From NCBI GenBank assembly GCA_023424865.1, contig JAFADM010000206.1, positions 1 through 11,473 on the forward strand: DNA of 11,473 nt. Direction: 5' to 3'. This DNA comes from Bacillota bacterium. Lineage in GTDB: Bacteria; Bacillota_A; Clostridia; DSM-8532. The position numbers and the translations under genes were made by a program. The notes under the pieces are model-generated. The model made no database searches, was not told the DNA's origin, and saw only the letters and a program-made list of their open reading frames with translations. Positions 410-11,046 of this stretch are shown one piece after another; the stretch's first letter is position 1, and every line of letters begins with the position of its first letter.

Positions 410-1078
410 ATGGCTGTATTAAAATTGGAAAATGTAGGTTACCGTTATAAAAATGGTGAACGCAACATTTTAAAAGGTGTGAACTGCACGTTTAAGGAAG
501 GAAGCCTCTGCTCCGTGGTAGGTCCCTCCGGAAGCGGTAAGACTACATTGCTATCACTTATGGCAGGATTGGATAAACCTGGAGAAGGTAAGCTGTACCT
601 TGACGGAGAGGATTTATCGGCTATGGATCTGGATTTGTATCGCAGGGAGAAAGTATCCATGATTTTTCAAGCTTTTCAGCTTTTTCCTCTTCTTACGGTA
701 TTGGAGAATGTCTGTTATCCTATGGAATTGAATGGCGTACCTCTGATGCAAGCCCGAAAAAGGGCCAAGGAGCTTTTGTCTTCCGTTGATATCTCTGAAG
801 AAAAGCACCGGCGCTATCCCTCCAATCTTTCGGGAGGAGAACAACAAAGGGTGGCTATTGCCCGTGCTCTCTCTACCGGAGCTCGGGTTGTTTTGGCGGA
901 TGAACCCACAGGCAATTTGGATACGGCTAATGGAAATCGAGTGATTGAGATACTTCGTCAACTGGCTCATGGGGAAAACTACTGTGTTATTGTCGTTACT
1001 CATGATCTCGTCATTGCAGATGGTTCAGATAGGGTTTATAAAATGACGGACGGGGTACTTTCAGCTCTAAGTGCATAA
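410..1078 (+). CDS. ABC transporter ATP-binding protein, MacB/LolD type
   Basis: This 222-residue protein is a stand-alone nucleotide-binding subunit that should hydrolyse ATP at the cytoplasmic face of a membrane permease. All motifs are intact: Walker A GPSGSGKTT (38-46), Q-loop Gln87, signature LSGGEQQ (140-146), Walker B VVLADEP (160-166) followed by TGNLD, and switch His198. The LSGGEQQRVAIARAL and ADEPTGNLD forms are typical of the MacB/LolD/BceA group, whose partners are FtsX-fold permeases. The natural partner is the double-FtsX permease starting at 4619, about 3.5 kb downstream. That separation is unusual, because such pairs normally adjoin. The start is set by AGGAGG at 397-402. No terminator follows, so read-through into the maturase gene is possible. 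The role is likely export of, or self-protection against, the mature peptide (inference). Confidence 0.9.
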   Translation: MAVLKLENVGYRYKNGERNILKGVNCTFKEGSLCSVVGPSGSGKTTLLSLMAGLDKPGEGKLYLDGEDLSAMDLDLYRREKVSMIFQAFQLFPLLTVLENVCYPMELNGVPLMQARKRAKELLSSVDISEEKHRRYPSNLSGGEQQRVAIARALSTGARVVLADEPTGNLDTANGNRVIEILRQLAHGENYCVIVVTHDLVIADGSDRVYKMTDGVLSALSA

Positions 1079-1256: not shown

Positions 1257-2711
1257 ATGGAAATTCCATTTATTGAGCTTTTTCACACACCTAATGGCAG
1301 CTACTTTTTGGATATTAACAGGAATGACTTAATCCCAATCAGAGAATCTTCATTTAAATATTTGTTAGAAGTACTATCAGGCAAGAAAGAATTAGATGCT
1401 AACGAACCTGAGGAATTGACAGAGCTTAGGTCTCAAGGATATCTTACCTTTCAAAGTGTTGTTAAAGAGGTACAGCATGCCTATTTAAAATTTCTCAGAA
1501 TTTTTCTCCAGCGCAAGTTAGCTAAAATCACCCTTCAATTGACTCAAAACTGTAATTTCAGATGTAAATACTGTATATACTCTGAGAACAGCAGCATGTT
1601 GCAACGCTCTCACTCTTCTAAACATATGAGCTTTGAGGTAGCCCAAAAGGCGGTAGATTTCCTCTGGAAGCACTCTGTAGACAGCCAGGATATAAATGTG
1701 GGCTTTTATGGAGGAGAACCTTTGCTGGAGTTTCCTTTGATTCAAAAGTTGGTGGCATACTGTAAAGAACGTTTTGAAGGCAAGAAGCTGACCTTTAGCT
1801 TAACGACTAATGGTACGCTCTTAAGTGATGAAATGATCCGATACTTTGAGGCTCATGATATTTCAATGATGATTAGCCTTGACGGCCCAAAAGAGATCAA
1901 TGATCAAAATCGCGTTTTTGCCGATGGACGGGGAACATATGATTCCGTCATGGAGCATGTGTATCGTATATTTAAAATTGCGCCTGAGTATGCTGAAAAA
2001 TTGCAAATCAGCATGGTGATGGACCCTGAAAATGATTTTGACTGCATTAATGCCATCTGCCTGCAAGGAGAAGAACTCAAAAGACTGAATATAATGCCCT
2101 CAATTATTGACCGCGAATATGATGGAACAGATGTGGTGTTTGCCGAAGAATATACATGGAAATATGAGTACCAGCGTTTTTTGGCGAATCTGTCTTATTT
2201 CGGACGTTATCCTGAAGATGAAGTCTCTCCTGTTGCAAGCCGTTCTGTAACCGCGGCTGTCAGTGACAATATCAAAATAAACACATCAATGGGCCTTCAT
2301 CGTATCGATGCGCCATCGGGGCCATGTGTTCCCGGCCAAGCTCGGCTTTTTGTCGATGTAAACGGACGATTGTTTCCATGTGAGCGTGTAAGTGAAAACT
2401 CACCCGCAATGTGTATTGGTACACTTGATGATGGGTTTTATGAGGAAAATGCTCAGCGGATTTTAAACATTGGCCATTTAACAGAGAATGCCTGCAAGAA
2501 ATGCTGGTGTTTCAGATATTGCAGCTTATGTGCAAAAAAAGCCGATACAGGCTCCCGACACCTTTCTGCCAAATTCAGGCTTTCGCATTGCAATGAATCC
2601 AAAGCCATGGCTTACAGCAAACTGAAGCAATACCTTCTGTTCAAGGAAATTCCTGTTTTTTATCCGGCGCAGACACGGCTAATCCACACAGAGGGAGGTC
2701 AAGCTACATGA
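1257..2711 (+). CDS. ccpM: Cys-rich peptide radical SAM/SPASM maturase (CcpM-type)
   Basis: This 484-residue enzyme should use S-adenosylmethionine and a 4Fe-4S cluster to make radical-based modifications on the Cys-rich precursor encoded at 4201. The radical SAM cluster motif is Cys99-x3-Cys103-x2-Cys106 (CNFRCKYC), followed by GGEP (152-155), TTNGTLL (183-189) and SLDGP (207-211). The C-terminal SPASM domain has Cys357, then GRLFPC with Cys375, Cys386, and the cluster Cys413, 416, 418, 422, 425 and Cys445, enough for two auxiliary clusters. The first 90 residues precede the barrel and may bind the leader peptide; I cannot confirm a canonical RRE. The family name follows NCBI nomenclature for maturases beside Clo7bot peptides. 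The start follows AAAGGAG at 1239-1245, and the stop overlaps the next start as ATGA (2708-2711), implying coupled translation. The exact modification is not readable from sequence; thioether chemistry is one option. Confidence 0.88.
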   Translation: MEIPFIELFHTPNGSYFLDINRNDLIPIRESSFKYLLEVLSGKKELDANEPEELTELRSQGYLTFQSVVKEVQHAYLKFLRIFLQRKLAKITLQLTQNCNFRCKYCIYSENSSMLQRSHSSKHMSFEVAQKAVDFLWKHSVDSQDINVGFYGGEPLLEFPLIQKLVAYCKERFEGKKLTFSLTTNGTLLSDEMIRYFEAHDISMMISLDGPKEINDQNRVFADGRGTYDSVMEHVYRIFKIAPEYAEKLQISMVMDPENDFDCINAICLQGEELKRLNIMPSIIDREYDGTDVVFAEEYTWKYEYQRFLANLSYFGRYPEDEVSPVASRSVTAAVSDNIKINTSMGLHRIDAPSGPCVPGQARLFVDVNGRLFPCERVSENSPAMCIGTLDDGFYEENAQRILNIGHLTENACKKCWCFRYCSLCAKKADTGSRHLSAKFRLSHCNESKAMAYSKLKQYLLFKEIPVFYPAQTRLIHTEGGQAT

Positions 2712-3817
2712 AAACACCGGCAGCTCTTTATCCTTTTTGCTCCCAGCTTTTGCCTGTAGTTAAATTTTTTGAGGATTTTCAGGATAAGTATGCGCTGAAA
2801 AAACTTTATTCACCTTCCGGGTTTGGTCTGAACGGACGGGACGCGGCTTATTCACGCAATCATCCTCAGATTGGGATAACAGTAGCAGATAGATTTAATC
2901 CCGGAGATCAGGAATGGGATGTTCTAATACTTATCAGAACGACAGGAATAGAGAAGATTGAAGACACAAAGCTGGTGGAGATAGCTGAATACACACTGCA
3001 ATCAGGAAAAAGTGTCCACTTTTTTGACGATAGCAGCGCCGATGTGCCTAAAAAAATGTGGACATTATCGGAAGCGTATCCGGATAAGGTAAAGCTTTAT
3101 ACCGGAAGCCTACAGACCATAGTAAAAAGATCATTCAGCAGTGAAGAGTACACGGCTGTTGACATTCCTGTTGTTTTAGTGGGCGGGTTGGTGGAAGAAG
3201 CCGATACCTTTGAGGTTTTACTGCGTCTGGCAGCGCAATTGCGAGCGGAAGGGTTCAATGCCACGGCCATAGCGAAACATCCTGTCGGCCAACTCTTTGG
3301 TCTTCATACTCTGAATCGTATCTATGAAAGAAACGACCTGACGGAGGCTCAAAAAATACTTGAGCTTAATCGGATGCTCAAAAACGTGGAGATTTCGGAG
3401 CGCCCCAACATTCTTTTGATTGAAGCTCCCGATGCTGTAAAACGTTATAACGATATTGCTCCAAACGGTTTTGGCATACGCACCTATATGCTTTGCCAAG
3501 CAGTCTGTCCCGATTATTTTATTTGCTGCGTACCGTGTGATTTGGGTGTAGAGGGATTTCTGGAAGCAATCAGCAGGGATTTTGAGAACCGCCTGAGTTC
3601 GCCCATCCATGCAGTCCATGTAAGTAATCTGGTCATTGATTCAATGGAGCTATTGCAATCCCATCGTATATCCTATATTCATACTCCTTTGGAGACCGTT
3701 AGGGAGCAGATTGCAAATGAAGGACTGGATTTGCACATTCCTTTGTTTGATGTTGTGGGCAATGGAGCGGATGCGCTATGCACCCATTTGTGCGACGTTA
3801 CGATGCTGAAAGGATGA
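2708..3817 (+). CDS. Peptide maturation system protein (TIGR04066-type), function unknown
   Basis: This 369-residue soluble protein has no signal peptide or membrane segment. It resembles the family named only as 'peptide maturation system protein' that accompanies Clo7bot clusters; no activity is known to me. The N-terminal part (about 1-145) has LYPFCS (7-12), SPSGFGLNGRD (35-45) and DVLILI (71-76). The second part opens with a P-loop-like strand and turn, VVLVGGLVEEADTFEV (155-170), lacking the Lys-Ser/Thr of a Walker A. It continues with AEGF (180-183), a conserved Pro192, PNILLIEAPDA (233-243) and NGFGIRTYMLCQAVCPDYF (253-271), whose end is Cys-rich (Cys263, 267, 273, 274, 277). The layout suggests a Rossmann/P-loop-like fold, possibly degenerate. 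The start overlaps the maturase stop by 4 nt and is preceded by GAGGGAGGT. The C-terminal extension of the S8 protease at 9613 appears related to this protein. Confidence 0.75.
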   Translation: MKTPAALYPFCSQLLPVVKFFEDFQDKYALKKLYSPSGFGLNGRDAAYSRNHPQIGITVADRFNPGDQEWDVLILIRTTGIEKIEDTKLVEIAEYTLQSGKSVHFFDDSSADVPKKMWTLSEAYPDKVKLYTGSLQTIVKRSFSSEEYTAVDIPVVLVGGLVEEADTFEVLLRLAAQLRAEGFNATAIAKHPVGQLFGLHTLNRIYERNDLTEAQKILELNRMLKNVEISERPNILLIEAPDAVKRYNDIAPNGFGIRTYMLCQAVCPDYFICCVPCDLGVEGFLEAISRDFENRLSSPIHAVHVSNLVIDSMELLQSHRISYIHTPLETVREQIANEGLDLHIPLFDVVGNGADALCTHLCDVTMLKG

Positions 3818-3822
3818 GAAAG

Positions 3823-4119
3823 ATGAGAGAGTATACATTGGATTTGCGCAGTACCATAATTCAACGCCGGATTACAGAAATGCTGAGTGTAAAGTTTTAC
3901 ATTCCTGAAGAAGTACTTGATCCGGATTATTGGGATGAGCCGTTGACTGGAAGTCGATACCAGTTTTCCGCCACTGATCTGACCTACTTGTTTTTTGAGC
4001 TGGAAAAAGTCTTTGGGATAAGAATTCCTCACCGATACCTACGTTCCTACGGTTTTTGTACCATTAATAAAATAGCCAAAATCCTGGAGCAATGCTGGGA
4101 AGAGTTAAATATTCCTTAA
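3823..4119 (+). CDS. Acyl-carrier-related peptide maturation protein
   Basis: This small protein (98 residues from this start) has an acyl-carrier-like second half: LTYLFFELEKVFGIRIP (53-69) matches the helix-II pattern LxxLxxxLExxFxIxIP of acyl carrier proteins, and INKIAKILEQ (81-90) matches the last helix. The DSL motif is not conserved. The position of the phosphopantetheine Ser, two before Asp52, is Ala50, while a Ser sits one residue earlier (49). It may therefore be a carrier-fold protein-interaction module rather than a true carrier. This matches the NCBI description 'peptide maturation system acyl carrier-related protein' in Clo7bot loci. Starts are possible at 3778 (inside the previous gene), 3814 (ATGA overlap) and 3823. 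I chose 3823 because AAAGGA at 3808-3813 is about 9 nt upstream; 3814 leaves almost no spacing. Confidence 0.72.
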   Translation: MREYTLDLRSTIIQRRITEMLSVKFYIPEEVLDPDYWDEPLTGSRYQFSATDLTYLFFELEKVFGIRIPHRYLRSYGFCTINKIAKILEQCWEELNIP

Positions 4120-4200: not shown

Positions 4201-4422
4201 ATGCCTCGGTTAAAGAAAAAGAGCTCTGTAGACTCTGTTGAAGCGTATGCTTGCATTTGCATGCTGGCTTCATGCAGCTGCAGCTGCAGTTGTGTCTGTG
4301 CTTGTACTACTTACCAGCCCAGTGCTGACGACCTGAATTCCGGGTATGATACCGGAACAGCAAATAGACGCTCTCCAATCCTGCAAACGAACTATTCAGC
4401 AGAAAATATGCAGTACTCCTGA
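4201..4422 (+). CDS. Cys-rich RiPP/bacteriocin precursor peptide, Clo7bot-like
   Basis: This 73-residue peptide is the probable substrate of the maturation enzymes. It has a short basic head (MPRLKKK), a SVDSVEAYA stretch (9-17), then a core with eight Cys: Cys18, 20, 25, 27, 29, 31, 33 and 35. The last six alternate strictly with single residues, mostly Ser. A polar, Cys-free tail of 38 residues follows (36-73), rich in Ser, Thr, Asn, Tyr and Gln. The core and the adjoining maturase, 369-residue and carrier-like genes match the Clo7bot pattern. AAGGGAGGTG (4185-4194) sits 6 nt before the ATG at 4201; a GTG at 4192 in the same frame lies within that ribosome site and is rejected. Only one precursor copy is present, whereas the family is named for seven copies in Clostridium botulinum. 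The mature boundaries and the fate of the tail are unknown. Confidence 0.82.
   Translation: MPRLKKKSSVDSVEAYACICMLASCSCSCSCVCACTTYQPSADDLNSGYDTGTANRRSPILQTNYSAENMQYS
4273..4288. repeat. 16-bp perfect palindrome in the Cys-coding repeat
   Basis: TGCAGCTGCAGCTGCA is its own reverse complement and contains two tandem GCAGCT units. It encodes the Cys-Ser-Cys-Ser-Cys run of the precursor. Such a tract could expand or contract by slippage, changing the number of alternating Cys, and could form a hairpin in the mRNA. Confidence 0.7.
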
Positions 4423-4602: not shown

Positions 4603-4622
4603 AGGAGGTTATGCGGAAATGA
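4603..4622 (+). promoter_or_regulatory. Ribosome site of the FtsX permease with a nested 3-codon ORF
   Basis: AGGAGG (4603-4608) stands 10 nt before the permease ATG at 4619 but only 2 nt before an earlier ATG at 4611. The earlier ATG would encode Met-Arg-Lys and stop at TGA 4620-4622, overlapping the permease start as ATGA. The spacing strongly favours 4619 as the real start. The mini-ORF is probably accidental. Confidence 0.5.
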
Positions 4623-7600
4623 AGAAAAATATTTGTTTGAAATCCACCCTGCGCCAGCCGGTACGGACACTTTTTTTTCTTTTGCTGGTAGGGCTTGTTT
4701 CCTTTGCTTTTATATCGCGGGCAGTGGAATATCTGGTAGTGCAAGGAGAAACAGCGCGATTGACAGAGTATTACCGCACCGTTGCCAGCCTTGAAAAAGT
4801 CGTGAAGACCCATGAGGACGATTATGATGTAACCGCCGGGGTGGAGCTGGTTTCAAAAAGTCCATACGTGGCTTTTGAAGACCGGCGGAGGTATAGCTCA
4901 GGAGTGCTCCAGGGAGTGTATAACTCTGATGTGGACGGTTATTTAAGTGAACGTGCCGGCAGCTCAGTTCGTAACTCGGGCCTCCATATAAGTGATGTAC
5001 TGGTGTACGGAACGCTGCAATCAAAAACCTATACGCCACCGACGAAGCCTGGTACCGAAGAATACCTGCTTACACTTCAGGTGGATAAGGTATTGGCGGG
5101 TTACCCTGAGTATGCGGGAGAAGGCCGGACCATTAAGCTTAAGTATTGTCCTGAAAGCTCCGGCGAGCTGGATGAGGCTTTTAATGGGCTCCAGGTGGGC
5201 GAACGGTATTTTATTAAAGCGTATTTTGATCCTTTTTATGATAATGTAATAAATCAGACTACCTCTGGAAATCTAGTACTTAAACCATTGAATAATAACG
5301 GTCTTTGGTTCTTTCCGCTTGAGCCGGATGCTTCCGCGGATTTCTCAGATCCGGCGCTTATGGGACTGGATGATGAGATTAAGGTACTGGTAGAAAATCA
5401 GCGGGCCATGCAGGTAATCGGTACCGGGGATATGAGCGCCATCCCGGCTATGCAGGAGGTATCCAGGCAGAATTACCTTGTTGAAGGACGCTGGCTCAAC
5501 AGAGAGGATGACACCGGAAGCCGGCGTGTCTGTGTTGTGCATCAAGATTTTGCGGAGCTTAGAGGACTTTCTGTGGGAGATAAAATCACTATTAGTCTAC
5601 GGGAACTGAAAGCTCCTTATTATGGCAGTTATATTGTTCCTGGGGAGGACTGGGGAGTCTGGGGAAATTACGATACTGATGTACAGGAATTTGAAATCGT
5701 GGGATTGTATGGAATACTTTCAGAAAACCCCGTTCAACTCTCCGTCTACAGTACACGCATGTACATACCTAACTCCTGTATGCCTGAAGGGTACAGAGAT
5801 CCCAATCTGTACTCAGACAGTCTCTACAGCTTTATCCTTCGCTCACCCCAGGACAAAGACGACTTCCTGGCTGAAAACGGGGATGCTCTGGAGGCATTGG
5901 GCATGAGGGTATCCTTTGTGGATAACGGCTGGGACAATTTCCAGGCGTCCGCCGTTCCAATAAAACAATCCGTGGCAATGAACGCAGGCGTATTTGCTCT
6001 GGTAACGCTGATGGCTCTGATTCTAACTGTTGTCCTCTATTTGCGGCAGCGGCGCAGGGAATTCGCCATCCTCCGGGCGCTGGGAGTACCCAAGCAGGAT
6101 GCCATAATGCAAACACTTTGGCCCATAACACTTATCGGGGCAGCCGGCATTCTGACAGGGGGTCTTCTTTCATGGCACTATGCACTGGGAAAGGCCTCAG
6201 AAACCTTGGCTTCTCTTCAGGGGCAGGAGGATGGAACACTTTCGGGGACACTCTCTCCGGTGTGGCTGGCGGGGCTGTGTGCGGGGCTTTTCGTTATTAT
6301 AATGATTTTTACGGCTATTGGTGCGCTTGCTACAGCTCGGCGGCCTGTTCTGGAGCTTATTCAGGGAACTGCGGTCAGGGTGACGGAAAGAGAACCCCAA
6401 CGGGGCGACGGACGGGAAAACCCGAAAGGCAGAGCTTTGCGTCCACAGTCCGCCATGCCTACCTTAACAGCTATAGAGGTTTCCAGTCCGTTTCCGAGAG
6501 GGACTCCGGAATCAGTAAAAAATTCAGGATTTGCGCAGATTGCGCGCTATATTATGCGGCATAGCCGTCGCGGGCCGCTCAAGTCCGTCCTGACCATTTT
6601 AGTAGCACTGTGCTTTACCCTGGCTTTGGGATGGATGAGTTGGTCCATGGAAGGAAACGAAGCGGAGCTGGACCGGCTTTATGGTACTACCCAGGTGGAG
6701 GGCGAAATTGTGAAGAAAAATGCTTCTGCTTTTGTTTCGGATTCCGGCAGCGGAATTATCCGAAAGCGGACTGTAGAGGCAATTATGGAAACCGGCTTTA
6801 TACAGAGCGCCTATCTGGAGGCCGGGGCAATTTCCCGGTCAATAGCCGCAGCAGATGAGGAAGGGAAATATGACGAAGGGCGAACGGCCGAGAAGGTTGC
6901 TCTGCGTGCCTTTGAGAGACCGGATAAGTTCTTCTCCCAAGGGGGGAGGTACATTACCTTAGAATATGCCGATGGATGGAATGAAAATCTTTTTGCCATG
7001 GACTGGTCGGAGGATACGGTAAGCAGACCGGTTGTCGTCCCTGCCGGCCTGCTAGACCGTCTCGAACTTAAGCCTGGGGACGGGATATGGCTCTCCGACA
7101 GTACCGGCAATACGGCTGGCAATTTTGTGATAGCTGGACAGTACACGGGAACGGTCATTGGTGACGAGCCGGAGCCCATTCTTATACCAACGACCGGACT
7201 TAAGCTTCTGGTTGGGGAAAACTTGAACTACAGTGTAGCAGAATTTGTTCTGGATCCGTCGAAAAACCGGAATTTACCAGAATTCCGTAAAAAAATGGAG
7301 ACGCTTTTTGCCGATGGGGGCGGAGGTATTATCGGCCTCAATTTCCTGCTTTGGGACGAAGTCCTCACTCAGGTGGTGGAGCCCTTGGAAAAGAACCTGT
7401 CTCTGATGGCGGTGCTTTATCCTGTAACCGTGGTGCTGTCGGTAATCATTGCGGCGGGTCTGGCTTTGCTTTTGATGTTCCAGACAGCCAGGGAAGCCGC
7501 CATCATGCGGGTGCTGGGAACAGCAAAACACCGAGCACGGGTCATGCTATGGGGGGAACAGCTTTTGCTGTGTTTTATTGGACTGCTGTCAGGCTTGATT

Positions 7601-7759
7601 CTGCTGATTGCACTCAGGCAGGATGTATCTGAAGTACTCGCAGGTACTGCTTTGACTTGCGCTGGTCTCTACCTGGCCGGAACCCTTTTAGGAGCCTTGT
7701 CAGGTGCTATTTTCGTCACCAATCGTATGCCCCTTGAACTCTTGCAGGTAAAGGAATGA
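4619..7759 (+). CDS. Double-FtsX ABC transporter permease
   Basis: This 1046-residue membrane protein has two MacB/FtsX units in tandem. TM1 is at about 18-40, followed by a very large outside domain (about 41-450). TM2-4 lie near 455-475, 500-520 and 545-572, with the FtsX cytoplasmic motif REFAILRALG (480-489). A charged linker (about 575-650, rich in Arg, Pro and Ser) leads to the second unit: TM5 (655-677), a second outside domain (about 678-925), and TM6-8 near 928-955, 980-999 and 1007-1033, with REAAIMRVLG (958-967). It contains no ATPase, so it needs a separate one; the gene at 410 fits. Such permeases use a mechanotransmission cycle to move peptides or lipids, or to confer resistance to antimicrobial peptides. 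The coding sequence looks richer in GC, particularly at third positions, than the maturase and protease genes, so it may have a different history. Confidence 0.88.
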   Translation: MKKNICLKSTLRQPVRTLFFLLLVGLVSFAFISRAVEYLVVQGETARLTEYYRTVASLEKVVKTHEDDYDVTAGVELVSKSPYVAFEDRRRYSSGVLQGVYNSDVDGYLSERAGSSVRNSGLHISDVLVYGTLQSKTYTPPTKPGTEEYLLTLQVDKVLAGYPEYAGEGRTIKLKYCPESSGELDEAFNGLQVGERYFIKAYFDPFYDNVINQTTSGNLVLKPLNNNGLWFFPLEPDASADFSDPALMGLDDEIKVLVENQRAMQVIGTGDMSAIPAMQEVSRQNYLVEGRWLNREDDTGSRRVCVVHQDFAELRGLSVGDKITISLRELKAPYYGSYIVPGEDWGVWGNYDTDVQEFEIVGLYGILSENPVQLSVYSTRMYIPNSCMPEGYRDPNLYSDSLYSFILRSPQDKDDFLAENGDALEALGMRVSFVDNGWDNFQASAVPIKQSVAMNAGVFALVTLMALILTVVLYLRQRRREFAILRALGVPKQDAIMQTLWPITLIGAAGILTGGLLSWHYALGKASETLASLQGQEDGTLSGTLSPVWLAGLCAGLFVIIMIFTAIGALATARRPVLELIQGTAVRVTEREPQRGDGRENPKGRALRPQSAMPTLTAIEVSSPFPRGTPESVKNSGFAQIARYIMRHSRRGPLKSVLTILVALCFTLALGWMSWSMEGNEAELDRLYGTTQVEGEIVKKNASAFVSDSGSGIIRKRTVEAIMETGFIQSAYLEAGAISRSIAAADEEGKYDEGRTAEKVALRAFERPDKFFSQGGRYITLEYADGWNENLFAMDWSEDTVSRPVVVPAGLLDRLELKPGDGIWLSDSTGNTAGNFVIAGQYTGTVIGDEPEPILIPTTGLKLLVGENLNYSVAEFVLDPSKNRNLPEFRKKMETLFADGGGGIIGLNFLLWDEVLTQVVEPLEKNLSLMAVLYPVTVVLSVIIAAGLALLLMFQTAREAAIMRVLGTAKHRARVMLWGEQLLLCFIGLLSGLILLIALRQDVSEVLAGTALTCAGLYLAGTLLGALSGAIFVTNRMPLELLQVKE

Positions 7760-7786: not shown

Positions 7787-9619
7787 ATGGCGCTGCACGA
7801 AAAGAGATGGGGCGAGCTTTCAGGTTTTTTTTCGACAATAGCCTACTGTTTGTCCCTCTCATGGAAAGCATCAAAAATCTACACGGTTATTAGGATCGCC
7901 AGCGAAATTTTTATGCCGCTCCTTTTAATCGTTGCCTCCTTTATTGGGAAATACCTAATTGACATGCTGGCAGGAGCAGGAGCTGCTGAAAACACCGGAG
8001 AGATGCTTCTGGTCCTGTTTGCATGCCTGCTGGCCATCACACTTTTGCGGACTGTTTGTCAAAAAACAACGCAATATTGTCAATCCACGCATAATGAAAT
8101 CATAAGCGGAAAGCTCGCCCTCAGCATGATGGAGCGCTCTCTTGCAGCCGACCTGGAGTACATGGACAATCCGGATTACCATGATAAGCTCCTGTCTGCC
8201 ACACGTGACTCGGCAGCCGTAACAAATTTGCTATGGAATGCGCTTGCATGCATTAGTTCAAGCGTCTCTTTGCTTGGTGCATTTGTTGTGCTATGCCAGT
8301 CTAATGTCCTTTATGGCTTTATGATGATGGCAGCAGCCTTCCCATCCTCTATAGCAGCGGCAAAACATACGAAATCACTCTATTATTTAAGTATGGAGCA
8401 GATAAACGGAGAACGGCAAAAGAGCTACTATCAAAGCCTTGCCGTGGACAAAAGTCATGCTCAGGATGTGCGGCTGTTCAATGCTGGCGATAGGCTTAAG
8501 GAACGTTATACCCGGCTGTGGCAGGAGTTGTTTGATAAAAGGAGAACTCTCATGAGGAAGCGAACCCTCCTCACCTGCCTTATGGATTGCCTTCCGGAGA
8601 TTGTCGTTGTGATTATCAGTATTCATATTGCGTTTCAGGTTATAGGGAAAATGGCTACCGTAGGCGATTATTCTCTCTATACCGGTCTCATAAGCCAGCT
8701 TTGGGCCGCCATATCGAGATTGTCCTCCTCTGTCATGCAGATCTATGATAATCAAATGAAAATAGCTAATGTAAAAAGCCTGGAGCATTTCCGGAACCGT
8801 ATTACAGACAATGGAACAAAGCCTCTTGACTATGTCGGCTCCATTGAGTTTGATCATGTTTGCTTTACGTATCCCGGTGCCAGGGTACGTGCCGTAGACG
8901 ATATAAGTTTTATGTTACGCAAGGAAGAAAAGGTGGCCCTTGTCGGGTTGAACGGTTCGGGAAAGTCAACGCTTATAAAGCTGCTTTTGCGTTTATATGA
9001 ACCGGACTGTGGAAGCATAAAAATTAACGGCACCGACATAAAAGAGTATTCGTTGATTGAGCTGAGAGCTAATTTCAGCGTCTATTTCCAGGAGATGCAA
9101 AATTATTTCTTTACCCTTAGAGATAATTTTACTATTTCAGACAGTAAATGCCAAAATGTGGATGAACTGATCATGAGCGCACTTAGAGACAGCTGCTGCG
9201 AGGATGTCCTGAAAAAAGCCGGAAAGGGTTTGGATACAAATCTGACCCGGTTTTTTGAAGCGGACGGCATTGAGCTTTCGGGTGGGCAGCATCAAAAGCT
9301 GGCTCTGGCCAGAGTTTTTTTTCGCAGGCATACCGCCTTGATTCTGGATGAGCCTTCCTCCAATCTTGACCCGAAAGCGGAGCATAATATATTCCGTTCT
9401 CTTCAAACACTGACACAAGGAAAAATGACGCTATTTACATCCCATAGATTATCTAATATCTTCCTGGCGGACAGAATTATTGTCCTGGAGAAAGGTAAAA
9501 TTGTAGAGGATGGAACACAGGAAGAACTATTGGAAAACAGGCAGCGATATGCCGAGCTGTTCAGGTATCAACAGGAAAAGTATTTAGTTGTAGAGGAGCA
9601 GAAAAAGAAATCATGTTAA
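7787..9619 (+). CDS. ABC exporter with fused membrane and ATPase domains
   Basis: This 610-residue half-transporter should dimerise in the membrane and export the modified peptide. The membrane part (about 20-325) has hydrophobic segments near 35-60, 72-92, 145-170, 175-193 and 268-286. The ATPase part (about 350-600) has Walker A GLNGSGKST (387-395), Q-loop Gln435, signature LSGGQHQK (497-504), Walker B ALILDEP (517-523) and switch His553. There is no N-terminal C39 peptidase domain, unlike dedicated bacteriocin exporters, so leader removal must be done by another protein, probably the adjoining S8 protease. AGGAGG (7774-7779) is 7 nt before the ATG, 27 nt after the permease stop, in the same operon. 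The stop overlaps the protease start by 7 nt, which implies coupled translation and linked function. Confidence 0.9.
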   Translation: MALHEKRWGELSGFFSTIAYCLSLSWKASKIYTVIRIASEIFMPLLLIVASFIGKYLIDMLAGAGAAENTGEMLLVLFACLLAITLLRTVCQKTTQYCQSTHNEIISGKLALSMMERSLAADLEYMDNPDYHDKLLSATRDSAAVTNLLWNALACISSSVSLLGAFVVLCQSNVLYGFMMMAAAFPSSIAAAKHTKSLYYLSMEQINGERQKSYYQSLAVDKSHAQDVRLFNAGDRLKERYTRLWQELFDKRRTLMRKRTLLTCLMDCLPEIVVVIISIHIAFQVIGKMATVGDYSLYTGLISQLWAAISRLSSSVMQIYDNQMKIANVKSLEHFRNRITDNGTKPLDYVGSIEFDHVCFTYPGARVRAVDDISFMLRKEEKVALVGLNGSGKSTLIKLLLRLYEPDCGSIKINGTDIKEYSLIELRANFSVYFQEMQNYFFTLRDNFTISDSKCQNVDELIMSALRDSCCEDVLKKAGKGLDTNLTRFFEADGIELSGGQHQKLALARVFFRRHTALILDEPSSNLDPKAEHNIFRSLQTLTQGKMTLFTSHRLSNIFLADRIIVLEKGKIVEDGTQEELLENRQRYAELFRYQQEKYLVVEEQKKKSC

Positions 9620-11046
9620 TCGCTTTGATTGATGATGGGATAGAAGCATCAGCTTGTCCAAATATCAGGATAAGGTTTGATTTGTCTGTTGGCAGTGACT
9701 GTGTCATCAAAAATCGTAATGCTGATGAAAAGATTATTACAGATCATGGAACGACATGTGCAAAAATAATTGCCAAGTACGCGCCAAATGCAGAATTTTG
9801 TAGTTTGCGCATTTTTCATAATGAAAAGCTTCGCGCTTCCTGCGATCTGCTTATAGCTGCATTGGAATGGTGCTTCACCATGGGTATTCCGATTATACAT
9901 ATGAGCATTGGCTCAACCCGTCCCGGCGATTATAAAGAAATCAGACCGGTGGTCGCCAGAATAATCCAGCAGCGCCAAATCATCATAGCCGCATGCAGTA
10001 ATAAGGTGGGTTATTCCATTCCGGCATGCCTTAACGGGGTATTGGGTGTAATGGCTGATAAAGGTCTGAAAGATGAAGAATATACGATTGCGTCAGACCG
10101 GTTGCCGAACTTAGGTCTGATACATGCTTCATCGAGGCATAAAATTGTACTTTCGCAAACGCATGAATATACTACCCCGATTTCCAACAGCTATGCCGCA
10201 CCGACAGTTACGGCAGCTGTTCACCATATCCTAGAGAAAAGCGGCGCCTATTCCCTATCGGTGGTGCAGCTCTATGCGAGGTTGTCTAAGGACTCAGAAA
10301 ACATCCTGTTTTTGAGACCTGAATTTATTGAAAATGCAGTGCTTCTCAATCCTTGCAGTTACCCTTTTTTAAAGGAACACTTCTTCTTTAGCTGCCTAGG
10401 GGAGTATCGCAGCTTATCAAATTTACAAGTTGCTATCCCAAATAGTAAAAATATTGTGTATTTAGCTCCCCAGGATGCTCGCATCCCAGAAAACTTTTGG
10501 TTTGAGAAAAAGGATGATATTGAATGTGTGCTATATTGTGGAAAGCTGCCGAAAAAGGTAAAGGATATATTGCCTAAAGCCTTGGTTTGGAGCGAAGATA
10601 ACTGCATTTATCCCGAGTATACAACTGAAAAACAGGATGTGGATTCTCCGGCCGTTATCAATCTTTACGGGAAAGGCTTAGAGGCCATTGATGTAATGTG
10701 CAGGCTGCGCCAAATGTTTATCGAGGAGGGTTATCAATGTATGGGAATCAGCGATTACCCCTTTTCCTATCTTTATGATTTGGAGTTTGTGCCTGAAGGC
10801 GTTTCAACTCAGTCAGCCGCTAGGTACTTAAATGAGCTATACCAACCGGAAGTTATTATTAATAATTATCAAATCCCCGGCCATACGTTTGATGAAAGAC
10901 CGGATGCTTTTTCTATTTTTCTGCAAGACGGTAAAAGTTATAAAAACACCTTTTTTATTGAAAGTCAAAGCAGCTATATGAAACCCAATGCAGATAAACG
11001 TGAAATTGCCCTACTTTATGATAAAATCCTAAAATGTTTTTTATAA
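9613..11046 (+). CDS. S8 (subtilisin-type) peptidase with C-terminal maturation-protein-like domain
   Basis: This 477-residue serine protease is the likely precursor-processing enzyme. The triad is intact: Asp7 in IALIDDGI, His45 in HGTTCA, and Ser193 in SNSYAAPTVTA, with oxyanion Asn130 in AACSN. The catalytic Asp is seven residues from the start, so there is no signal peptide or propeptide, and the enzyme should act in the cytoplasm before export. The peptidase part ends near 235. The remaining 240 residues are not part of the S8 fold and resemble the 369-residue maturation protein: VINLYGKGLEA (348-358), EEGY (371-374), Pro383, LYDL (387-390) and LNELYQPEVII (406-416) match VVLVGGLVEEA, AEGF, Pro192, LFGL and an LN...PNILL stretch there. 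The start overlaps the exporter stop by 7 nt; the nearest ribosome site, AGAGGAG (9592-9598), is 14 nt away, so translation probably depends on coupling. No U-run terminator follows. Confidence 0.85.
   Translation: MLIALIDDGIEASACPNIRIRFDLSVGSDCVIKNRNADEKIITDHGTTCAKIIAKYAPNAEFCSLRIFHNEKLRASCDLLIAALEWCFTMGIPIIHMSIGSTRPGDYKEIRPVVARIIQQRQIIIAACSNKVGYSIPACLNGVLGVMADKGLKDEEYTIASDRLPNLGLIHASSRHKIVLSQTHEYTTPISNSYAAPTVTAAVHHILEKSGAYSLSVVQLYARLSKDSENILFLRPEFIENAVLLNPCSYPFLKEHFFFSCLGEYRSLSNLQVAIPNSKNIVYLAPQDARIPENFWFEKKDDIECVLYCGKLPKKVKDILPKALVWSEDNCIYPEYTTEKQDVDSPAVINLYGKGLEAIDVMCRLRQMFIEEGYQCMGISDYPFSYLYDLEFVPEGVSTQSAARYLNELYQPEVIINNYQIPGHTFDERPDAFSIFLQDGKSYKNTFFIESQSSYMKPNADKREIALLYDKILKCFL

Follow-up and report, generated by a model that had tools for sequence, protein, structure and literature searches.

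An S8 protease with a reduced, P-loop-less DUF1611-type tail encoded at a locus for a Cys-rich radical SAM peptide

The locus and its protease

The window, an 11,473-nucleotide stretch of contig JAFADM010000206.1 from a Bacillota bacterium (assembly GCA_023424865.1), holds a single cluster of genes, all on the same strand, for the making of a Cys-rich radical S-adenosylmethionine (SAM) peptide (Table 1). Our subjects are the S8 (subtilisin-like) protease encoded by its last gene and the TIGR04066-like protein encoded after the radical SAM maturase. The C-terminal tail of the protease derives from a DUF1611-type module that has been reduced and has lost its P-loop, as seen from profiles, predicted models and intermediate forms; the TIGR04066-like protein is a larger pseudo-DUF1611 of the same descent and stands beside an acyl-carrier-like protein that lacks the serine. 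A sequence-only reading of the window had described both open reading frames (ORFs), of 477 and 369 residues, and had numbered their residues, all correctly; it had proposed that the tail resembles the 369-residue protein, and that the locus thus holds two paralogous non-catalytic modules.

Table 1. Features of the window, with strand and basis of assignment.
Feature	Coordinates	Strand	Basis or remarks
ABC ATPase, LolD/MacB type	410..1078	+	Model match
Radical SAM/SPASM maturase, CcpM (TIGR04068) type	1257..2711	+	TIGR04068, E 4.6e-147, 490.6 bits
TIGR04066-like protein, 369 residues	2708..3817	+	Pseudo-DUF1611: Rossmann domain and P-loop-less P-loop fold
Segment of TIGR04066-like protein aligned to protease tail, residues 97-241	2996..3430	+	hhalign
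Former Walker A loop of TIGR04066-like protein, residues 157-171, LVGGLVEEADTFEVL	3176..3220	+	Alignment with S8-DUF1611 fusions and TIGR04066 proteins
TIGR04069-like acyl-carrier-related protein	3778..4119	+	TIGR04069, E 2.4e-13
Cys-rich precursor peptide: leader-like start MPRLKKKSSVDSVEAYA, Cys-rich core, 3' tail	4201..4422	+	Sequence; alignment with candidates of 10 related loci
FtsX-like permease of MacB-type exporter	4619..7759	+	Pfam FtsX
ABC exporter (transmembrane and ATPase)	7787..9619	+	Pfam ABC_tran, ABC_membrane
S8 protease, 477 residues	9613..11046	+	Pfam peptidase S8; S8 domain and C-terminal tail
S8 (subtilisin-like) catalytic domain, protease residues 1-225	9613..10287	+	Triad D7 (9631), H45 (9745), S193 (10189); oxyanion N130 (10000)
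C-terminal tail, protease residues 226-477	10288..11043	+	Reduced, P-loop-less module homologous to TIGR04066/DUF1611
Tail segment with direct profile homology, protease residues 300-420	10510..10872	+	hhalign, 96.0, E 4e-9

The protease is a member of the Pfam peptidase S8 family (37.1 bits, threshold 21.8), and no extra residues precede the first strand of its S8 domain. A seven-sequence alignment (the window protease and six others) found 196 related proteases, of which 120 were listed and the 107 of at least 440 residues were used; the Asp-His-Ser triad is intact in all 107. The best curated model for the S8 part was that of QhpE (NF049966), at 84.6 bits against a cut-off of 165. The predicted model of the whole protease (pLDDT, the predicted local distance difference test, 92.2) contains no added domain besides the tail. 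At 252 residues, as against 369 in the TIGR04066-like protein, the tail falls short of the approximately 360 residues of a full-length module; its first domain is reduced, and the P-loop domain is present only as its first half, without the EAPDA...NGFGI region.

Direct searches with the protease found little beyond the S8 domain. It gave no match to the NCBI TIGR04066 model at E <= 1, and we class it as a homologue and not as a member; the tail alone, as a query for close relatives, recovered only the window protein. Fold searches with the whole protease returned only subtilisin-type proteases among the 50 matches listed in each of two libraries (‘pdb’ and ‘pdb_via’), and subtilisin-type proteases followed by weak, mixed matches in a viral library. 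For the fold of the tail we therefore rely on the order and register of secondary-structure elements in the predicted models.

Homology of the tail and the TIGR04066-like protein

The tail and the TIGR04066-like protein are almost certainly homologous. As single sequences, they gave a BLASTP match of 29.3 bits (E 2e-4 for that one comparison) between residues 272-435 of the protease and 94-238 of the TIGR04066-like protein. We then compared profiles built from the 107 protease tails and from 67 TIGR04066-like proteins, namely the window protein and those 66 of its 73 relatives that have 340-400 residues; the window proteins were included in both profiles. Alignment with hhalign gave a probability of 96.0 and an E-value of 4e-9 over 122 columns (Table 1), and comparison of full-length profiles gave 95.4 and 2e-8, both above the 90 percent that the sequence-only reading had set as its mark. 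Eleven of the 13 residue pairs which that reading had numbered are identical to those of the independent hhalign pairing; the only ones to fail are Glu357-Ala358/Glu164-Ala165, in a loop where the tail is two residues shorter. The P-[EN]-[VI]-[IL]-[IL] strand it had picked out is likewise aligned by hhalign, whereas the LN pair is left unpaired and is paired only in a gapped MAFFT alignment. Its further suggestion of a weaker N-terminal similarity (NPCSYPF and YRSLSNL against LYPFCS and YALKKLY) found no support in the profiles: tail residues 226-325 against residues 1-130 gave a probability of 0.8%.

Control comparisons scored far lower. After 100 column shuffles no score exceeded 23.5, compared with 67.5 for the real pair; reversed profiles scored 14.6 and 15.2, and the S8 domain against the TIGR04066-like profile gave a probability of 0.1%. 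When all 18,950 NCBIfam models were scanned against 91 relatives (15 of the 106 aligned proteases were left out), TIGR04066 matched 15 of them at E <= 0.1, the best at 2.7e-6; of the other models for domains outside proteases, the next matched six and no other more than one. The secondary structures of the two separately predicted models agree at 99 of the 121 aligned residues, as against at most 76 for even-numbered register shifts of up to 20. A generic Rossmann/P-loop likeness, or chance, without special kinship might be argued from the identity of only 16 of the 121 aligned residues, from the commonness of Rossmann folds and from Pfam, which matches the window protease with S8 only and its 91 relatives with sporadic weak others (DUF1611 in none). 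We consider it very improbable, however, given the failure of shuffled and reversed profiles, the lead of TIGR04066 over the next model and the existence of the full-length intermediates described below.

The DUF1611 fold and the loss of the P-loop

The structural family of both modules is DUF1611, which combines a Rossmann domain with a P-loop domain. A fold search with the predicted model of the TIGR04066-like protein found the two-domain fold common to the DUF1611 structures (PF07755; 2obn, 2g0t and DgcN, 7xrj). Pfam PF07755 itself, at above 25 bits, gave no match to the protein, and one of the 67 TIGR04066-like proteins matched at E 0.028. Weak PDB sequence matches (E >= 0.021) had hinted at a likeness of the TIGR04066-like protein to glutamate receptors; none was obtained with the profile, and we preferred the result of the fold search. 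The relatives in which the module is fused to an S8 domain retain both the sequence match to DUF1611 and the P-loop, whereas the P-loop is destroyed in both copies in the window.

In the Thermotoga structure 2g0t the Walker A motif is GTDCVVGK; the S8-DUF1611 fusions have, for example, GTSSKQGKF. GTxxxxGKF is present in all nine P-loop-type fusions (L043-L047, L049, L050, L133 and L134); GTxxxxGK is missing from the three fusions L048, L051 and L135, which are lachnocin-type or related, and from the modules fused to radical SAM enzymes (L055 and L056). The former Walker A loop of the window's TIGR04066-like protein could be aligned with that of the fusions (GTSSKQGKFTLQL) and with those of other TIGR04066 proteins (for example GTGEKTNKFDIQL). 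In place of an intact P-loop, the TIGR04066-like protein has GGLVEEADT, and the tail, two residues shorter here, YGKGLE--AIDV. Window-type TIGR04066 proteins read EADTFEVL, with aspartate in the column of D166 in 71 of the 94 proteins compared (66 of the 67 in the window's own set), and TIGR04066 proteins found elsewhere in the class often have a sequence close to TNKFEIQL, which retains the lysine and has lost the glycine before it. Lysine follows the D166 column in 22 of the 94 when L053 is counted, and L053 is the only one of the 94 with a GK-type loop. Among 35 proteins from 31 TIGR04066-type loci, the sole Walker-A-like string (L001) lies at residue 94, in the first domain and away from the P-loop site.

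The exceptional L053 protein (L053:9106-10194, minus strand) is DUF1611-like, with an intact P-loop, GTRPCIGKF, and a Pfam DUF1611 score of 32.1 bits. It is encoded in a nonribosomal peptide synthetase cluster, next to a major facilitator superfamily (MFS) transporter, and is a further example of this module in the vicinity of carrier domains.

Intermediate forms

In a genome search, the TIGR04066 model matched the tail region of the Anaerocolumna protease directly (E 7e-6, model positions 58-204). We extended the search to 392 genomes from the order of Anaerocolumna and 391 from its class (overlapping sets), with matches in 23 and 22 of them, respectively. In these the model also matched S8 proteases of 556-625 residues, in which the C-terminal part is a TIGR04066-type module: the eight such fusions scanned gave E-values from 2e-28 to 2e-13, the match spanning, for example, positions 3-357 of 361. 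The modules of nine fusions aligned with the TIGR04066 profile over 337 columns (98.9%, E 1.7e-17), and all nine matched Pfam DUF1611 at E <= 0.01 and no other family; the three fusions scanned as whole proteins (L043, L045 and L049) exceeded the DUF1611 gathering score. Compared with known structures, the nine-module profile matched 2g0t at E 4e-6 (the next match, unrelated, was at 0.011), with the P-loop GTDCVVGK aligned to GTSSKQGK. Seven fusion modules matched the window-type tail at 95.0%.

Between these fusions and the shortest proteases the tails are graded, with remnants of about 320 residues (L127 and L128), 250 residues (the window type) and 150-215 residues (L126, L079 and, weakly, L008). 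For a profile of seven mid-sized tails, the probability was 95.7% against TIGR04066 (positions 71-239) and 96.4% against the fusion module, and the first 140 residues of these tails gave only 2.6% and 1.4%, respectively. With this profile the match extends back only to position 71, which takes the homology into the latter half of the first domain. In a tree of 51 S8 domains, the module-bearing proteases, with the radical-SAM-linked L072, stand apart from seven other S8 proteases with a Shimodaira–Hasegawa-like approximate likelihood ratio (SH-aLRT) support of 91, subject to long-branch warnings; the S8 domains of the P-loop-intact fusions form one clade (SH-aLRT 99).

Two fusion loci have features of their own. 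At L050:5054-15642, genes for a radical SAM enzyme, a YcaO protein, a methyltransferase, the S8-DUF1611 fusion, a serine-bearing carrier and two ABC proteins surround a small, KK-rich, Cys-containing peptide candidate (L050_8415). At L043:15352-15700 (minus strand), an intact carrier gene is adjoined by a pair of neighbouring Cys-rich precursor candidates that differ from each other.

Loss of the carrier serine

The TIGR04069-like protein of the window has alanine 65 (numbered in the long ORF, within FSATDL) in the column of the phosphopantetheine serine, and with no serine and no match to Pfam PP-binding (PF00550) it does not qualify as a functional acyl carrier. We collected carriers in 55 fetched regions with two iterated profiles, one seeded from fusion loci and one from TIGR04069-like proteins, each of which recovered the set of the other; the serine column was taken as 14 residues before a conserved F, ungapped. 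Two of the 38 carrier rows were dropped: L013, which repeats L057, and an L122 carrier lying approximately 5 kb away, which has the serine. All eight carriers found in fusion loci (from eight of the nine P-loop-intact loci) have the serine, compared with one of 36 (L052) in the 31 loci with a TIGR04066-type module, whether free or on a radical SAM enzyme (Fisher exact p 5e-8, not corrected for kinship). Pfam PP-binding exceeded its cut-off in seven of the eight (L050 scored 18.8 against 20.8) and in neither the window nor the L127 protein. No carrier was found in the fetched regions of the fusion loci L046, L048, L051 and L135. The P-loop and the carrier serine are thus either present together or lost together.

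Related loci and neighbouring genes

A profile search of genome contigs with an alignment of 46 TIGR04066 sequences found 12 loci. Among their ORFs, the S8 part of the window protease as query found seven S8 proteases besides the window's own, and the tail as query found six of these (missing that of L008), giving six loci with S8 plus tail (L002, L003, L007, L010, L011 and L012). Their gene order is radical SAM, TIGR04066, carrier, precursor, FtsX, ABC, ABC and protease, except in L003, where the carrier comes at the end. In the window, by contrast, the gene for the small ABC ATPase precedes that for the radical SAM enzyme. Despite this position, the ATPase is probably the partner of the FtsX permease, because in the six related loci it directly follows the FtsX gene.

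Altogether, 53 regions were examined (the window, L001-L012, L043-L062 and L121-L140). A full S8 fusion is present in 12, none of which has a free-standing module; a free-standing TIGR04066-like protein is present in 35 (L053 included), none of which has a full fusion. Ten of these 35 regions have an S8 protease with a recognized tail and six have another S8 protease, and among those six the proteases of L126, L130 and L140 match the tail profile at 94-98%. The module is fused to a radical SAM enzyme in two regions (L055 and L056), and four have neither form, three of them being S8 comparison regions.

Because their scores fall below the curated cut-offs, the matches to TIGR04068, TIGR04066 and TIGR04069 carry names in ‘-like’ or ‘-type’. 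The maturase matches positions 1-459 of 462 of its model and stays below the cut-off of 500 bits; the 369-residue protein scores 172.4 bits (E 1.3e-50, positions 4-342 of 361) against 200, and the carrier-related protein 50.3 bits against 70. An alternative start for the latter, at 3814, would overlap the stop of the preceding gene; the stop of the ABC exporter gene overlaps the start of the protease gene. The border between leader and core of the precursor is placed tentatively, from sequence. After the Cys-rich core the precursor has a long, variable 3' tail with a loosely common ending, YSAENMQYS (YNSENMMYS in L007).

Two further arrangements were seen among the related loci. Within 18 kb, L126:1-17900 carries a tandem array of three radical SAM/TIGR04066/carrier-like sets and a single short-tailed S8 protease. 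Three loci from Lachnospiraceae metagenome-assembled genomes (L005:1628-4006, L006:11171-13390 and L008:11779-14019) encode a protein of 740-790 residues with a solute-binding domain (SBP_bac_1, under the cut-off in L008) one or two genes downstream of that for TIGR04066, and no match to the exporter proteins of the window was seen in the fetched DNA of these three.

Discussion

The reading we favour, at roughly even odds (a probability of about 0.5), is that the protease cuts the leader and that its dead tail docks it onto the maturation complex. By analogy with QhpE and SacP23, a cytosolic, QhpE-like subtilisin would remove the leader of the Cys-rich precursor after modification by the radical SAM enzyme. 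The ancestral module probably had an enzymatic activity that used a carrier-bound or CoA-like cofactor, since the sister clusters have an intact module, fused to S8, beside an intact carrier. Both halves of this pair would have lost their chemistry in the window and been kept as structural parts, as may be supposed from the occurrence of the same module as a free protein and as a part of radical SAM enzymes and of proteases. Together with the radical SAM enzyme, the TIGR04066-like and TIGR04069-like proteins would then make up the core of a maturation complex; by docking the protease onto this complex, the tail would make cutting follow modification. The proposal of two paralogous non-catalytic modules accordingly survives with a qualification: the modules are homologous and both lack the P-loop, and they are unequal copies. 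That they are non-catalytic is supported by their motifs; a common job, such as holding the precursor or assembling the complex, is more conjectural, though the module also occurs on the radical SAM enzyme (L055 and L056) and, at full length, on S8 proteases (12 loci).

Several observations weigh against this reading. The complex is itself conjectural, and the tail could instead bind the leader or only stabilize the protease. No S8 gene was seen in the fetched DNA of 19 of the 35 regions with a free-standing module, several of which are short contigs, and the tails of the S8 proteases of L052, L056 and L060 are too short or too diverged for a profile match. The joint decay of P-loop and serine may rest on one or two events, because the P-loop-intact fusions form one clade. 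Moreover, L048, L051 and L135 have lost the P-loop and yielded no carrier, and a full S8 fusion therefore does not always go with an intact pair. Lastly, the module tree (57 modules, 145 columns; p 0.60 and 0.61 in approximately unbiased (AU) tests of two clades) is compatible with either origin of the tail, which may descend from an S8 fusion or from a free-standing TIGR04066 protein.

Other functions were considered for the module. The DUF1611 part of the fusions might be an N-acyltransferase, dependent on a carrier or CoA, that caps the new N-terminus left by the protease part, a step which window-type clusters would have lost or would still perform in a remodelled site of the TIGR04066-like protein. 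The DUF1611-fold structure 7xrj found by the fold search is titled N-acetyltransferase DgcN, the nine P-loop-type fusions combine an intact P-loop with a serine-bearing carrier in eight of their loci, an intact DUF1611-like protein sits with carrier domains in the peptide synthetase cluster of L053, and purified SacP23 resisted Edman degradation, which its authors read as a blocked N-terminus (PMC10731318). We nevertheless regard such capping as doubtful. No acyl group has been seen and DgcN, to go by a mention at the gene level (PMC11747546), acts on free D-glutamate, while the P-loop is lost from the window protein and from 93 of the 94 TIGR04066-like proteins, and the serine from 35 of 36 of their carriers, so that the block in SacP23 need not come from capping; the authors themselves liken it to the failure of Edman degradation with modified sactipeptides and circular bacteriocins (PMC10731318). 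Somewhat bolder, and to be taken as speculation, is the view that the S8-DUF1611 fusions are two-headed enzymes for ribosomally synthesized and post-translationally modified peptides (RiPPs), joining a leader protease to a carrier-dependent transferase of acyl or other groups onto the freed N-terminus. The CcpM/SacP23-type clusters, including the window, would then be descendants in which a dead transferase and a dead carrier persist together in a structural role, while part of the transferase is still attached to the protease.

A role of the tail as a substrate-recognition domain, which would bind the leader or the Cys-rich core and position it in the S8 site with no other partners in the cluster, seems improbable to us. 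It would suit the direct fusion of the tail to a protease without any other added domain, and its conservation beside this class of peptide; but the module also occurs free-standing or fused to a radical SAM enzyme, more in keeping with a shared role in docking or substrate presentation than with one confined to the protease, and stubs of about 150 residues are found in some clusters. The docking of the protease onto a maturation complex continues to be our preferred explanation. The tie between TIGR04066 and DUF1611, with the joint pattern of P-loop and serine, gives TIGR04066 and TIGR04069 a concrete origin and provides an explanation for the protease tail, and the S8-DUF1611 fusions with an intact carrier are a place to seek new chemistry at peptide N-termini.

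Comparison with known systems

The NCBIfam names of TIGR04066 and TIGR04069 say no more than that these are peptide maturation system proteins which accompany CcpM-type radical SAM enzymes; CcpM is named in the literature as a previously annotated enzyme. The TIGR04066 family (a hypothetical equivalog) shares with the tail the profile homology over residues 300-420, the same cluster and, where the two align, the same succession of strands and helices; the tail differs in its shortness, in the absence of the second half of the P-loop domain with EAPDA...NGFGI, and in scoring below the model cut-off. In the limited collection of literature available to us, we found no paper linking TIGR04066 or S8 proteases to DUF1611, and none on the intact sister form, the S8-DUF1611 fusion.

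QhpE, the leader protease of quinohemoprotein amine dehydrogenase, is likewise an S8 protease with a radical SAM thioether maturase and an ABC exporter as neighbours, and it removes the QhpC leader in the cytosol after modification (PMC7876137); its model, of 219 positions, covers only the S8 part of the window protease. A similar described cluster is that of SacP23 from Paenibacillus polymyxa #23, in which TIGR04068, TIGR04066, TIGR04069, a subtilase and an ABC transporter surround a Cys-rich precursor, and which has been produced in Bacillus subtilis (PMC10731318). There, leader cutting was assigned to the subtilase by analogy and placed before modification, and TIGR04066 was labelled immunity as a guess, the family being said to contain proton-transporting ATPase subunits; the survival argument for immunity concerns the whole expressed cluster and not the TIGR04066 gene alone (PMC10731318). 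The observed mass of SacP23, 3404 Da against a predicted 4455 (PMC10731318), may leave room for C-terminal trimming as well. A predicted sactipeptide-like cluster of Roseburia intestinalis L1-82, with TIGR04068, TIGR04066, TIGR04069, a subtilase (cd07492) and an ABC transporter, was described in a 2015 survey, whose passage on the cluster contains no analysis of the protease tail (PMC4573289). In the Lachnocin-type cluster L051 (radical SAM maturase NF038170, 838.5 bits), the S8 protease has a C-terminal TIGR04066-type module (E 2e-13) with a degenerate P-loop, and no carrier was found in the fetched region. What the window adds to these systems is a probable RiPP leader protease whose tail is a pseudoenzyme, and whose family also has an intact sister form.

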